DNA of 64,000 nt from Halanaerobium kushneri (GTDB lineage Bacteria > Bacillota > Halanaerobiia > Halanaerobiales > Halanaerobiaceae). Shown here one piece after another: positions 3,821 to 54,020 of this stretch. Position 1 is the stretch's first letter; each line of letters starts with the position of its first letter. The DNA is taken from positions 62,001 through 126,000 of the forward strand of contig NZ_FTNC01000005.1 in NCBI RefSeq assembly GCF_900156285.1. Reading direction: 5' to 3'. A model generated the notes under the pieces. It searched no databases and had not been told where the DNA came from. It worked only from the letters and a program-made list of their open reading frames with translations. A program made the position numbers and the translations under genes.

Positions 3821-3847
3821 ACTTAAAAATAAAGAAAAATAAACCTG

Positions 3848-4067
3848 TGAACAGAAGAGTAGGAATTTTAGTGGAATCAGCGAATCGAGGATGGTGTGAG
3901 CTCGAGCAAAACTTGATTCTGAAGCGCATCTGTGAGGATTTTTTCTGAACTCAGTAGGAAAAAACGTAGAATTGCGTTAAATTAGCTGAAAGTGGATAAT
4001 TATGTTATCAAGCAGAGTGGTACCACGGATATTAACCTGTCTCTATTATATGGAGGCGGGTTTTTGT
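3848..4067 (+). ncRNA. T-box riboswitch, probable Arg specificity
   Basis: This is a tRNA-sensing leader. Stem I is closed by CAGAA (3852-3856) with TTCTG (3943-3947); the upper stem pairs GAATCA with TGATTC around an AG-rich apical loop. The conserved antiterminator T-box AGAGTGGTACCACGG lies at 4014-4028, with TGG available to pair with the tRNA NCCA end. On the 3' side of stem I, CGC at 3925-3927 followed by A is the best specifier candidate and reads Arg, which matches argGH. A terminator ends the element. Uncharged tRNA-Arg would stabilise the antiterminator and switch on argininosuccinate synthesis. The specifier assignment is by eye. Confidence 0.88.
4035..4067 (+). terminator. T-box regulated intrinsic terminator
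   Basis: AACCTGTCTC pairs with GGAGGCGGGTT (10 pairs including G-U) and TTTTTGT follows. The 5' arm overlaps sequence used by the competing antiterminator. Confidence 0.8.
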
Positions 4068-4170: not shown

Positions 4171-5385
4171 ATGGCTAAAAAAGAAATTAAGAAAATTTTG
4201 TTGGCGTATTCAGGTGGTCTTGACACTTCAGTGGCGATTAAGTGGCTGCAGGATAAATATGATGCGGAAATTATTACTTATACTGCCCATTTAGGTCAGC
4301 CTCAGGACTGGGATGCAGTTGAAGAAAAGGCGCTGGCAACAGGTGCTTCTAAGGCCTATATTGATGACATTAGAGAAGAGTTTATTACCGATTATGTTTA
4401 TCCGGCACTTAAGGTAAATGCGATGTACCAGGAAAAATATCCCCTGGCAACAGCCCTGGCTCGTCCTTTAATATCCAAAAGAATGGTTGAGATTGCAAAG
4501 AAAGAGGGGGTAGATGCACTAGCTCATGGCTGTACTGGTAAGGGTAATGATCAGGTTCGTTTTGAAGTTTCTTTTAAGGCTCTGGCGCCAGAAATGGAAA
4601 TTATTGCACCTTTAAGAGACTGGGAATTTGTTTCCAGAGACGCAGAGATTGAGTATGCAGAAGAGAATGGAATACCTGTTAAGGCGACTAAAGACAGTCC
4701 CTACAGTATTGACCAGAACTTATGGGGGATCAGTATTGAATGTGGTATTTTGGAAGATCCCTGGGAAGAACCGCCTGCAGATGCCTATCAATGGACTAAA
4801 GATGTAGATGATACACCTGATAAGCCTAAATATCTTACAATAGATTTTGAAAAAGGAATTCCAGTAGCAGTAGATGGAGAGAAGATGTCTCCGATTGAAA
4901 TTGTAGAAAAGTTAAATGCAGTTGGTTCAGAATACGGAGTCGGCAGAATCGATATGTTAGAAGACAGACTGGTTGGAATTAAATCGAGAGAGATTTATGA
5001 AGCACCAGCAGGAGAGATTTTAATTACCGCCCATAAAGCTCTGGAAGATCTGACTTTAGATCGTGACACTAAAAATTACAAGGCAGAAATGTCAGCTAAA
5101 TATGCTGAGCTGACCTATAATGGCCTCTGGTTCTCACCTTTAAGGGATGCTTTAGATGCCTTTGTGGAAAGGGCCCAGGAAACTGTAACCGGTACAGTTA
5201 AAGTTAAGTTATATAAAGCAAGCTGTACTCTGGCAGGTAGAAAATCTGAGTACTCTCTCTATGACCACGGACTGGCTACTTATGATGAAAGTGATAATTT
5301 TGATCATAAATCTGCTCCTGGATTTATTAATCTCTGGGCTCTACCTCTGCAGGTGGCAAATCAGAAAAAGAGAGAAGAGAAATAG
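4171..5385 (+). CDS. argG: Argininosuccinate synthase
   Basis: The 404-residue enzyme joins citrulline and aspartate with ATP to give argininosuccinate. The N-terminal ATP pyrophosphatase loop LAYSGGLDTSVAIKWL is at residues 11-26, followed by AHGCTGKGNDQVRFE and the citrulline-binding region SPYSIDQNLWG; the length is normal. ATG lies 9 nt after AAGGAGGA. It is the first gene of a two-gene operon with argH, the stop codon abutting the argH start, and is controlled by the T-box upstream. Confidence 0.97.
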   Translation: MAKKEIKKILLAYSGGLDTSVAIKWLQDKYDAEIITYTAHLGQPQDWDAVEEKALATGASKAYIDDIREEFITDYVYPALKVNAMYQEKYPLATALARPLISKRMVEIAKKEGVDALAHGCTGKGNDQVRFEVSFKALAPEMEIIAPLRDWEFVSRDAEIEYAEENGIPVKATKDSPYSIDQNLWGISIECGILEDPWEEPPADAYQWTKDVDDTPDKPKYLTIDFEKGIPVAVDGEKMSPIEIVEKLNAVGSEYGVGRIDMLEDRLVGIKSREIYEAPAGEILITAHKALEDLTLDRDTKNYKAEMSAKYAELTYNGLWFSPLRDALDAFVERAQETVTGTVKVKLYKASCTLAGRKSEYSLYDHGLATYDESDNFDHKSAPGFINLWALPLQVANQKKREEK

Positions 5386-8155: not shown

Positions 8156-8179
8156 AATATTTAATCTGGAGTGGTTATT

Positions 8180-8725
8180 TTGAAAAATAAGACAAGAAAA
8201 TTAGTCTGGGCAAGTTTTTTGTTGATTCTTGGAATAATATTACCGAGACTTGTTAACCTAACTGGCAGTATTACACTGGGGAATTTAATCTCCCCAATGC
8301 ACATTCCAGTCTTTTTAACAGCCTTAATTTTAGGTCCTTTTTATGGGACGCTGGTAGGATTTATTACACCTTTATTTAGCACTTTGCTTTTTGCTATGCC
8401 GCCTATGATGCCGCCAATTGCAGTTTTGATGGCTTTTGAACTGGCAGCTTTTGGACTAATAGCTGGTTATCTTTATTCAGATAGGTCAAAGAATATATAT
8501 TTGAGTCTGATTTCTGCTATGATTCTGGGGCGTTTGGTTTATGGGCTGGCTTTAATTGCAATCGGGCCAATCTTTAATTTTAATCCACCATTTATTCCTT
8601 TTCTACAGGGAGCTTTTATTACCGGGATTCCGGGGATGGTTATTCAACTTGTCTTAGTTCCAATGATCATTGACAAGATAAAGCCAATAAAGGAATTTGC
8701 AGAGTTTAATAGAAAAATAAAATAG
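8180..8725 (+). CDS. ECF transporter S-component, substrate unknown
   Basis: The 181-residue protein has about five or six hydrophobic helices and the pattern of vitamin-type substrate-binding S-components: SPMHIPVFLTALILGPFYG near residue 40, then Pro-rich MPPMMPPIAVLMAFEL. S-components pair with shared EcfA/EcfT energising subunits, which are not in this window. GTG 8171 lies within the Shine-Dalgarno zone; TTG 8180 is 8 nt after GGAG and is preferred. It is only 24 nt after the protease gene and may be co-transcribed. No riboswitch leader is visible, so the substrate cannot be inferred. Confidence 0.75.
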   Translation: MKNKTRKLVWASFLLILGIILPRLVNLTGSITLGNLISPMHIPVFLTALILGPFYGTLVGFITPLFSTLLFAMPPMMPPIAVLMAFELAAFGLIAGYLYSDRSKNIYLSLISAMILGRLVYGLALIAIGPIFNFNPPFIPFLQGAFITGIPGMVIQLVLVPMIIDKIKPIKEFAEFNRKIK

Positions 8726-38090: not shown

Positions 38091-38181
38091 ATTAGGCAGC
38101 AGAATATTTGTTTATCTATCTAATATGCTAAAATTTAAGTTAGAATTAATTTTTAATTAAAGCAGCAAGGAGGAGAGTACA

Positions 38182-39051
38182 ATAGAAGAATTAATTGAAA
38201 AGGCTAATGTTTTAATTGAAGCTTTACCCTATTTTAAAGATTTTTTTGGCAAGACTTTCGTGATCAAATATGGTGGCAGTATTATGGCAGATCCAAAATT
38301 AAAAGAAAAATTGATTGAAGATATTACTCTGCTTAAATATGTGGGTATTAATCCGGTAATTGTTCACGGAGGAGGACCTGCTATTAATAAGACTCTGGAT
38401 CGTTTAAACATTGAAGCTAATTTTATCGATGGTCTTCGAGTAACTGATAAGGAGACAATGGAGATTGTGGAGATGGTCCTCTCGGCTCAAATTAATAAGG
38501 AGATTGTGGCTCTGATTAATAAAATGCAGGCCAAGGCAGTCGGAGTTTCGGGTAAAGATGGTAATCTGATCAAAGCCAAGAAGAAAGAATTTAGTGACCC
38601 AGAAAAGGATTTAGGTTTTGTCGGTGAAGTTGAGAAAATTAATCCGGAGTTAATTGAAAAGTTGATTGAAGATGGTTATATCCCTGTGATCGCTCCGGTT
38701 GGTGTCAATGATGATGGTGAAGGTTTAAATATCAATGCTGATGCAGTAGCAGGTGAACTTGCAGCTGCTTTAAAGGCTGAAAAATTAATTTATTTAACTG
38801 ATGTAAATGGTATTCGCTTTGAGGCGAAGGATCCGGAGAGTAGGGTCTCACAGCTTACATTTTCAGAGATTAAACAGTGGATTTCTGAGGGGAAAATTCA
38901 GGGAGGTATGCTGCCTAAAGTTGAGGGGTGTATGCAGGCTGTAGAAAGTGGAGTTATCAGGACTCACATTTTAAATGGTCTGGTAGCACATCCACTGCTT
39001 TTAGAAATCTTTACTGACCGGGGAGTTGGGACCATGATTTTAAAGGATTAG
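38182..39051 (+). CDS. argB: Acetylglutamate kinase, probable AUA start codon
   Basis: The 289-residue enzyme phosphorylates N-acetylglutamate. Motifs: FVIKYGGSIMAD, PVIVHGGGPAIN, VGVSGKDGNLI, NINADAVAGELA. The first standard start is GTG 38260, which would delete the conserved N-terminal helix (EELIEKANVLIEALPYFKDF). That helix is encoded in the same frame from 38182; between there and the in-frame TAA at 38158-38160 no ATG, GTG or TTG exists. AUA 38182-38184 lies exactly 8 nt after AAGGAGG. I therefore place the start at AUA. Confidence 0.93.
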   Translation: MEELIEKANVLIEALPYFKDFFGKTFVIKYGGSIMADPKLKEKLIEDITLLKYVGINPVIVHGGGPAINKTLDRLNIEANFIDGLRVTDKETMEIVEMVLSAQINKEIVALINKMQAKAVGVSGKDGNLIKAKKKEFSDPEKDLGFVGEVEKINPELIEKLIEDGYIPVIAPVGVNDDGEGLNINADAVAGELAAALKAEKLIYLTDVNGIRFEAKDPESRVSQLTFSEIKQWISEGKIQGGMLPKVEGCMQAVESGVIRTHILNGLVAHPLLLEIFTDRGVGTMILKD

Positions 39052-42472: not shown

Positions 42473-42583
42473 ATAACAGCCGGGGCGGAATCTTAAGATT
42501 AAGAGCTGCACCCATTTAGAAGCTGTTAAATACAATAAGTTTAGTCCACCTGGATCAATGGACTGGGATGGGAGGAAAAGAAA
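42473..42583 (+). promoter_or_regulatory. Structured leader, candidate orphan riboswitch
   Basis: AACAGC near the 5' end pairs with GCTGTT about 50 nt on, enclosing GGGGC/GCACCC and the self-complementary AATCTTAAGATT. A second hairpin pairs AGTCCA (42543-42548) with TGGACT (42558-42563), followed by GGGATGGGAGG with the ribosome-binding site. ACCCAT from the first domain could instead pair with ATGGG at the Shine-Dalgarno, giving an alternative fold. ECF S-component genes are often under riboswitches. I could not match a known class by eye. Confidence 0.45.
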
Positions 42584-43105
42584 ATAAAACTCAAAACAAG
42601 ACAGATCGTGATTGCTGGTATGCTGGGAGCTATTTCTATTATATTAGGTGCTACTGGATTGGGCTTAATTCCCTGGCCAAGCGCAGCCGGACATGCAACG
42701 ATAATGCACCTGCCGGCTATTTTGGGAGGGATTATTGAAGGTCCGATTGTAGGTCTTCTAATTGGTTTGATTTTTGGTATTTTTAGTTTTATTAGGGCGA
42801 CAAATCCGATTTTTGCTGACCCGATTATTGCTATATTACCGCGTTTGTTTATTGGAGTGGCTGCTTATTATGCCTATCAATCAACAAAAAAATTAAACCA
42901 GAGTACTTCTTTAATACTGGCTGGAGCAGTTGGTACTATTGTCAATACAGCCGGTGTTTTAACTCTGGCCGTAATCAGAGGTTATTTACCTTTAAGTGCT
43001 GCTCTGGCTGTTGCTGCTACAAATGGAATACCTGAAATAATTGTAGCTGCAGTATTTTCGTTGATTATCGGCAAAGCTTTGATTAACTTTCAAAAGAATA
43101 ATTAG
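42584..43105 (+). CDS. ECF transporter S-component, probable AUA start codon
   Basis: The 173-residue protein has about six helices. LKTRQIVIAGMLGAISIILG followed by ATGLGLIPWPSAAGHATIMH and PAILGGIIEGPIVGLLIG is the pattern of vitamin-type S-components. Conserved KLKTRQ-type N-termini in this family start directly with Met, but here no ATG, GTG or TTG precedes KLKTRQ before the in-frame TAG at 42542-42544. AUA 42584 lies exactly 8 nt after GGAGG. GTG 42608 is possible but would remove conserved residues and has no ribosome-binding site. The substrate is unknown. A terminator follows closely. Confidence 0.85.
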   Translation: MKLKTRQIVIAGMLGAISIILGATGLGLIPWPSAAGHATIMHLPAILGGIIEGPIVGLLIGLIFGIFSFIRATNPIFADPIIAILPRLFIGVAAYYAYQSTKKLNQSTSLILAGAVGTIVNTAGVLTLAVIRGYLPLSAALAVAATNGIPEIIVAAVFSLIIGKALINFQKNN

Positions 43106-51311: not shown

Positions 51312-51314
51312 ATA

Positions 51315-54020
51315 GTGGAAATTATTATAGATAACAAAAAAATTGAAGTTGATAAAGGTAAAACAGTTCTGGAAGCTGCTAAAGAAAATGGAATTGTAAT
51401 TCCAACTCTCTGCCACAGCTCTTTTTTAGAAGATGTTGGTGCCTGCAGAATGTGTTTAATTGAAGACCTTGCTGACGGAAAACTAAAAACTTCCTGTACA
51501 ACTGAGGTAAAAGAAGGGATGGAAGTTTTAACCAAAAGCGAACGAGTAGAAGATTCACGCCGGACAATCCTTGACTTATTAATTTCAGATCATCCCTTAG
51601 ACTGCATGACCTGTGAGGCAGGTGGAAACTGTATCCTTCAGGACTTAGCCTATCATTATGGTATTGAGCGATCTTCGTATGGTGCAAAAGTTGAAAGACG
51701 TTTTGAAATTGAAAGAAACAATGAATTTATTGAGCTGGATCCTGATAAATGTATTTTATGCGGTAAATGTATCAGAGTTGATCAGGATATTCAGTGTTCA
51801 GATGCTATAGATTTTGTTGACAGAGGTTTTCAGACTAAAGTTGGGGCAGCTAATGATGAGGGATTGGGTGGGGAAGATTCGACCTGCGTTTTCTGCGGTC
51901 AGTGTGTAGAGCTTTGTCCAACCGGAGCTTTAAGCTATATCCCTTCTCAAAATAAAGGTAGAGAATATGATTTTGAAAAGACTGTTACAACCTGTCCTTA
52001 CTGTGGAGTTGGCTGTCAGTTGGAGCTTAAAACCAGAGATAGAAAAGTTATAGAAGTAGGTTCAGTCTATAGAGAAGGAACTCCCAATCCTTATGGTGAA
52101 GCCTGTGTTAAGGGAAGATTTGGTTATGATTTTATTAATCATCCTGATCGGCTTAAGAAGCCGCTGATAAAAAGAAATGGTAGTTTTGAAGAGGCCGAAT
52201 GGGAGGAAGCTCTGTCAATGGTGGCAGAAAGGCTGACGGAAATTAAAGATGAATATGGTGGAAGAGCTCTGGCAGGCTTGAGTTCTGCTAAATGCACAAA
52301 TGAAGAAAATTATTTAATGCAGAAATTTATGCGAGCAGTAATCGGTACAAATTCTGTTGACCACTGTGCCAGGTTATGTCATGCTTCAACTGTTGCCGGT
52401 CTAGTTAAGGCTTTTGGTTCAGGAGCGATGACCAATTCGATTGCTGAAATTGAAGGTTCAGACGTGATATTTGTAATTGGCTCCAATCCAACAGAAAATC
52501 ATCCGGTAATCGGCAGTAAGATGAAAAAAGCTCAAAAACAGGGGACAAAATTAATAGTCGCTGATCCTCGTCAGATTGAACTTTCATCGCTGGCAGAAGT
52601 AGCTATCCAACACCGGCCCGGTACAGATGTAGCATTACTCAATGGTCTGATTCATGTAATTATTGATGAAGGGCTGGCCGACCAGAAATTTATTGAAGAA
52701 CGAACTGAAAACTATGAATATCTAGCTTCAGTGGTTGAAGATTATACACCTGAAAAAGTTGAAGAGATCACAGGGGTTGAGGCAGTTAAAATTAAAAAAG
52801 CAGCCAGACTCTACGCTGAGGCAGATAAAGCAGCAATTTATTTTGCCATGGGAATCACCCAGCACAGAACGGGTACAGATAATGTATTATCAGTTGCCAA
52901 TTTAGCACTTTTGACAGGAAATGTTGGTAGAGAAAGTACTGGAGTTAATCCACTCAGAGGTCAGAATAATGTTCAGGGAGCCTGTGATTTGGGTGCTCTT
53001 TCAAATGTTTATCCAGGTTATCAATCAGTAGAGGATCCTGAGATCAAAGAAAAGTTTGCCCGTGCCTGGGAGACAGAAGAACTCTCAGAAGAAGTTGGTT
53101 TAACTGTTGTTGAAATTTTTAAGCAGGCCGGAAAAGAGATTAAAGGACTCTATATTATAGGCGAAAACCCGGTGATTTCTGATCCAGATCAGCGGCATAT
53201 AGAAGAGTCTCTTGATAAACTTGATTTTCTGGTTGTAGAAGATATATTTTTGACGGAGACTGCTAAATTTGCTGATGTTGTGCTGCCGGCTGCCTGTTTT
53301 GCTGAAAAAGAAGGCACTTTTACCAATACTGAAAGAAGAATTCAAAAGGTTAATCAGGCAATTGAACCTCCTGGAGAGGCCAGAGCTGACTGGAAGATTA
53401 TTTCCGAAATTTCAACTAGAATGGGTTACCAGATGAATTATGATTCTCCAGCAGAAATTATGGCAGAAATTGCAGAAGTAACTCCGATTTATGGCGGAAT
53501 CTATGCTGATCGACTGGGAGATAAAGGTCTGCAGTGGCCCTGTAAAGACAGGGAGGATCCTGGAACTAAATTTTTACATCAGGGAGAATTTGCTCGGGGT
53601 AAGGGTAAATTTCATCCTGTAACTTATATCCCACCTGCTGAAGAGGTAGATGAAGAATATGATTTTATCATGATGACCGGGAGAATGCTTTATCACTTCC
53701 ATACTGGAACAATGACCAGAAATTCAGAACCAATTGATAAACATGAACCCGATGCCTATCTGGAAATCAATGAAAAAGATGCTAAAAAGTTAAGAATTAA
53801 GGAGGGGGACCGAGTCAGAGTGACTTCTCGCCGGGGTGAGGTAGAAACCAATGTCAGAATAGGAGAAAGAGTTCAGCCGGGCCAAATTTTTATGCCCTTC
53901 CATTATGCAGAAAGTCCGGCCAACAGACTGACAAATCCTGTTTTAGATCAGGATGCCAAAATACCGGAACTTAAAGTAACTGCGGTTAAGATTGAGAAAG
54001 TAAAAAGCAATAAAATTTGA
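51315..54020 (+). CDS. Formate dehydrogenase catalytic subunit, cysteine form, with NuoG-like Fe-S head
   Basis: The 901-residue molybdenum or tungsten enzyme opens with a [2Fe-2S] domain (PTLCHSSFLEDVGACRMC), a His-Cys cluster (DHPLDCMTCEAGGNC) and two [4Fe-4S] motifs (CILCGKC, CVFCGQCVELCP). The bis-MGD domain begins at TCPYCGVGCQLEL. The catalytic position, Sec in E. coli FdhF, is Cys here in HCARLCHASTVAGL. GTG 51315 is 11 nt after AGGAGG; AUA 51312 at 8 nt is an alternative. It oxidises formate to CO2 with NAD via the two preceding subunits. Confidence 0.93.
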   Translation: MEIIIDNKKIEVDKGKTVLEAAKENGIVIPTLCHSSFLEDVGACRMCLIEDLADGKLKTSCTTEVKEGMEVLTKSERVEDSRRTILDLLISDHPLDCMTCEAGGNCILQDLAYHYGIERSSYGAKVERRFEIERNNEFIELDPDKCILCGKCIRVDQDIQCSDAIDFVDRGFQTKVGAANDEGLGGEDSTCVFCGQCVELCPTGALSYIPSQNKGREYDFEKTVTTCPYCGVGCQLELKTRDRKVIEVGSVYREGTPNPYGEACVKGRFGYDFINHPDRLKKPLIKRNGSFEEAEWEEALSMVAERLTEIKDEYGGRALAGLSSAKCTNEENYLMQKFMRAVIGTNSVDHCARLCHASTVAGLVKAFGSGAMTNSIAEIEGSDVIFVIGSNPTENHPVIGSKMKKAQKQGTKLIVADPRQIELSSLAEVAIQHRPGTDVALLNGLIHVIIDEGLADQKFIEERTENYEYLASVVEDYTPEKVEEITGVEAVKIKKAARLYAEADKAAIYFAMGITQHRTGTDNVLSVANLALLTGNVGRESTGVNPLRGQNNVQGACDLGALSNVYPGYQSVEDPEIKEKFARAWETEELSEEVGLTVVEIFKQAGKEIKGLYIIGENPVISDPDQRHIEESLDKLDFLVVEDIFLTETAKFADVVLPAACFAEKEGTFTNTERRIQKVNQAIEPPGEARADWKIISEISTRMGYQMNYDSPAEIMAEIAEVTPIYGGIYADRLGDKGLQWPCKDREDPGTKFLHQGEFARGKGKFHPVTYIPPAEEVDEEYDFIMMTGRMLYHFHTGTMTRNSEPIDKHEPDAYLEINEKDAKKLRIKEGDRVRVTSRRGEVETNVRIGERVQPGQIFMPFHYAESPANRLTNPVLDQDAKIPELKVTAVKIEKVKSNKI

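Follow-up and report, generated by a model that had tools for sequence, protein, structure and literature searches.

A conserved AUA codon at the probable start of an ECF transporter S-component gene and of argB in Halanaerobium

The reading frame of an ECF transporter S-component gene in Halanaerobium has no in-frame NUG codon at its Shine-Dalgarno sequence, and the codon found at start spacing is AUA, one of the AUH codons (AUA, AUU and AUC). Where, then, does translation of this gene begin, and why is the codon there not an ordinary start? The gene lies in the window, that is the whole stretch of 64,000 nucleotides that was analysed (G000:C18:62001-126000), which belongs to a Halanaerobium draft genome of 53 contigs.

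The S-component reading frame

An earlier note on this DNA had placed the start of the S-component gene at AUA 42584, 8 nt after GGAGG and with no NUG back to the in-frame TAG at 42542-42544, and had described another AUA-start gene with identical 8-nt spacing. The sequence agrees with both statements. In the window, no ATG, GTG or TTG occurs in frame between the TAG and the ATA, the spacer AAAAGAAA occupies the 8 nt (42576-42583) between GGAGG and ATA, and the GGAGG of argB is likewise followed by ATA after 8 nt (Table 1). Directly 3′ of the S-component ATA the coding sequence reads KLKTRQIVIAGMLG, and GATGGGAGG is invariant at the Shine-Dalgarno sequence in all 13 aligned leaders. The frame does contain one CTG, at 42563, which is positioned upstream of the Shine-Dalgarno sequence inside the pan hairpin and is replaced by CCG in several relatives. 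The translated product matches PF12822 with E=9e-27 (94.5 bits against a curated cut-off of 30.7), and the NCBIfam models give a sub-threshold match only, to the folate S-component family. A second ECF S component of the window, FolT-like and with a conventional start, is found at 8171-8725.

Table 1. Positions of the argB and S-component features in the window.
Feature	Position	Strand	Basis
Shine-Dalgarno GGAGG of argB	38169..38173	+	sequence
Probable AUA start codon of argB	38182..38184	+	conserved across Halanaerobium; 8 nt after GGAGG
argB, acetylglutamate kinase, 289 aa counted from AUA	38182..39051	+	TIGR00761, 279 bits vs cut-off 151
pan motif (Rfam RF01749), two-hairpin leader RNA	42482..42575	+	cmscan, 44.6 bits vs gathering threshold 36.2
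Shine-Dalgarno GGGAGG of S-component gene	42570..42575	+	sequence; core GGAGG at 42571-42575
Probable AUA start codon of S-component gene	42584..42586	+	ATA at aligned codon in relatives
S component of an ECF transporter (173 aa), probably importing pantothenate (PanT-like)	42584..43105	+	PF12822, pan motif, panB absence

Conservation of the two AUA codons

Homologs of the S component turned up in 50 of the 61 relatives searched, and the 79 loci in named genomes include several from the same genomes under two handles. ATA stands at the aligned start codon in all 12 Halanaerobium genomes searched (77-100% protein identity), and the other two genera of the family carry ATA (G013) and ATT (G012). 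In other families of the Halanaerobiales the aligned codon is ATG (L014, L016, L017, L023 and L028), GTG (L025) or TTG (L026 and L027), in each case directly 5′ of the same conserved N-terminus; in L019, L020, L022 and L024 the start is located further upstream. Since these outgroups carry an ordinary start codon at the position of the Halanaerobium AUA, the S-component start can be placed exactly. Codons 2-12 differ among the 12 Halanaerobium genomes almost only by synonymous changes (one K/N exception), and are therefore translated.

The AUA codons inside the gene behave differently from the one at its head. The figures that follow are descriptive, carry no formal test and come from related genomes. 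Within the S-component gene, AUA is retained at its six internal positions in 15 of 52 comparisons, with no position invariant, and 3 of the 29 internal Ile codons are invariant, whereas the start AUA is present throughout. Within argB, a single internal Ile codon out of 31 is invariant, whereas AUA occupies the start in 10 of the 10 Halanaerobium genomes that have the gene. The aligned argB codon in nine other Halanaerobiales (L121-L129) is ATG or GTG. Both starts are thus conserved beyond the drift of Ile codons and align with NUG in outgroups, and, as judged from these alignments, a drifting Ile codon does not explain the fixed AUA in either gene. The presence of AUA across the genus, NUG at the aligned codon of other families, synonymous variation in codons 2-12 and drift of the internal AUA codons next to a fixed start effectively exclude chance, a downstream start and a sequencing error for the S-component AUA. 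Motif counts give no such signal: bare GGAGG-N6-9-ATA occurs 6 times in the window against 7.4 expected, which is not above chance, and the case for AUA starts therefore rests on conservation.

Start discrimination, AUH starts and competing explanations

The earlier note had taken two such genes in 64 kb for a lineage trait, caused by relaxed IF3 discrimination or a modified initiator tRNA. The lineage part of this proposal is borne out by the conservation described above, whereas neither cause is supported at the level of the genus. We consider it unlikely, on balance, that Halanaerobium or the whole order is relaxed in start discrimination via initiator tRNA or IF3, such that AUA, AUU and AUC would drift in a near-neutral manner. 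In favour of such relaxation, A29:U41 replaces G29:C41 in the initiator tRNA order-wide and in two further families (L278-L292; L205 19198-19274), and the tRNAs of G006, G007 and G012 additionally have G31:U39. The three G-C pairs of the initiator tRNA are highly conserved in all domains, with IF3 involved in their selection (PMC7949028, review), and the A29:U41 deviation could matter for initiation. On the sequences compared, however, A29:U41 by itself cannot explain the AUA starts, because relatives that share it use AUG, GUG or UUG for the S-component gene and argB. The CAU anticodon is kept in the Halanaerobium tRNA. Matches to GGGCTNATAACCC were seen as candidates for an initiator tRNA with a UAU anticodon, but ARAGORN returned only CAU initiators in the scanned loci. 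The IF3 side fares no better, as no IF3 residue specific to Halanaerobium was found among 30 Halanaerobiales, and infC retains its own near-cognate start (AUC in nearly all 30, including L152, with AUU in L160 and AUA in L167). In E. coli, IF3 controls its own synthesis by means of a near-cognate infC start of this sort. Furthermore, near-neutral drift would not hold AUA fixed in 12 of 12 and 10 of 10 genomes, and nearly all genes use NUG starts.

The frequency of AUH starts bears on the same alternative. A scan of codons after Shine-Dalgarno sites, proposed in the earlier note, gave a divided answer: raw counts put AUA no higher than other codons, AAA and AGT among them, and a weak enrichment at start spacing is seen only for AUH codons taken together. 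Where no usable NUG is present, AUH codons occur at 5-9 nt after a Shine-Dalgarno site in 21 of 95 cases compared with 12 of 143 at 12-20 nt (p=0.003, two Halanaerobium genomes), an enrichment that is weak and drawn from small counts with overlapping entries, and which favours relaxed discrimination as far as it goes; the same comparison in G025 gave no enrichment (1/23 vs 4/36). The sequence sampled for the rate of AUH starts amounted to 1.13 Mb (G000), 0.8 Mb (G006) and 0.4 Mb (G025). In the G000 sample about 5 of 950 genes have a well-supported AUH start, namely argB, the S-component gene, infC (AUC), an Ogg-like glycosylase gene (AUC) and an S8 protease gene (AUC), and the presence of several such genes in a sample of this size is likewise a point for relaxation. 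As AUU and AUC starts occur too, the non-canonical start trait is one of the AUH class and not specific to AUA. In a broader proposal, to which we give a low probability, AUA, AUU and AUC would form a standing minor start class (about 0.5% of sampled genes) in the Halanaerobiales, an order in which A29:U41 takes the place of one of the three near-universal G-C pairs of the initiator tRNA, and a set of metabolic genes would thereby be tuned by initiation fidelity.

Several further genes carry AUH codons in comparable positions. The gene of the Ogg-like DNA glycosylase (L210 3014-3538; L333-L348) begins with AUC, AUU or AUA depending on the Halanaerobium genome, and its start in other families is AUU or AUG; in G005 the gene is apparently broken or deleted (G005:C7:55662-55887). 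For the subtilase-family S8 protease gene (L202 7595-9364; L236, minus strand), whose G000 and G006 proteins are 38% identical, the start is AUC in both genomes. In an MntP-like gene (L206 3118-3660, minus strand), AUA follows GGAGG at a distance of 8 nt and is not preceded by any NUG; no close orthologs of this and further AUH candidates (GDPD, L200; several in G006) were found in the sampled stretches. At 51312-51317 of the window itself, an in-frame AUA, separated from a GGAGG by 8 nt, immediately precedes the GTG that was called as the start of a 901-aa dehydrogenase-like gene. This AUA is possibly a third AUA start of the window; no ortholog of the gene was found in the sample.

Far less probable than relaxed discrimination is translation from GTG 42608 or ATG 42620, with the AUA being merely part of the 5′ UTR. 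Automated callers would indeed pick GTG 42608, but most relatives have GTA or GTT in its place, no Shine-Dalgarno sequence precedes either this codon or ATG 42620, and the codons between the AUA and these positions evolve synonymously and match the N-termini of AUG-starting relatives. A sequencing error, or a start decayed in a single strain, might be suspected in a draft genome and has next to no probability, given that the AUA is also present in independent isolate genomes and MAGs, including the complete single-contig genome G006.

The pan-motif leader and a proposed role for a weak start

The pan motif upstream of the S-component gene runs at its 3′ end into the Shine-Dalgarno sequence. 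Each of the 12 Halanaerobium genomes has exactly one pan match, always 9 positions before the S-component AUA. The predicted consensus fold consists of two hairpins, in which the closing helix of the second would take up the first two Gs of the Shine-Dalgarno sequence and AUA 42584 would be left unpaired. The motif was originally described 5′ of panB, panC and aspartate decarboxylase operons (PMC2864571), and in G019, G022 and G032 a pan match is found close upstream of panB. The described cases and the present one share a leader of two hairpins immediately 5′ of a gene with a link to pantothenate supply. Here, however, that gene encodes an ECF S component, and panB is missing from the genus (absent from 12 of 12 Halanaerobium genomes). 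Because the pan motif lies upstream and panB has been lost, the role of the S component in Halanaerobium is probably to import pantothenate.

Taken with the conservation of the codon, this arrangement leads us to regard it as likely that AUA 42584 is the true start of a pan-controlled S-component gene, and that a weak start, discriminated against by IF3 and offset by a strong Shine-Dalgarno sequence, has been kept by selection as a ceiling on expression, with argB alike. Under this mechanism the ordinary CAU initiator tRNA would read AUA with a mismatch at the third position, such that the S-component protein would begin with fMet and not with Ile. By analogy with known near-cognate starts, IF3 would reject most AUA complexes and initiation would be weak, a weakness for which GGGAGG at good spacing may compensate in part. 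Selection would then retain the AUA as a low ceiling on S-component expression. The pan RNA, which adjoins the Shine-Dalgarno sequence, probably gates access to it, and the ceiling set by the AUA would sit on top of this control; argB may employ the same weak-start device.

Conserved AUA starts are of an already known kind, and what is new here are the genes and the lineage. Near-cognate AUU starts in E. coli infC and pcnB limit expression and are sensitive to IF3. The E. coli genes and those of Halanaerobium would have in common an AUH start kept to limit expression; the differences are that the E. coli codon is AUU and not AUA, that the genes are unrelated to the S component or argB, and that IF3 sensitivity belongs to E. 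coli and is extended to Halanaerobium by analogy. Both E. coli starts are cited in a study of S. aureus (PMC13009471), in which infC and ccpN have AUA starts behind extended Shine-Dalgarno sequences, reporters with AUA or AUU give ∼10% of the AUG level in poor medium, and the ccpN AUA site is conserved in B. subtilis. A conserved AUA behind a strong Shine-Dalgarno sequence, read as lowering initiation, is common to S. aureus and Halanaerobium. The S. aureus genes, however, encode an initiation factor and a repressor and were studied with ribosome profiling and reporters (PMC13009471), whereas the Halanaerobium genes, studied here by sequence comparison, encode one subunit of a transporter, downstream of a pan-motif RNA, and an enzyme of biosynthesis.

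A genus-wide AUA on structural genes, of which one follows a pan leader in the absence of panB, implies that near-cognate starts are selected outside infC and regulators. Since the Halanaerobium AUA aligns with AUG, GUG or UUG in sister families, the group provides a natural test of the purpose of a weak start. Standard gene callers accept NUG starts only, and genes with AUA starts are consequently misplaced or truncated. Elsewhere in the window, a T-box leader is located at 3838-4047, upstream of an argG-like gene at 4171.
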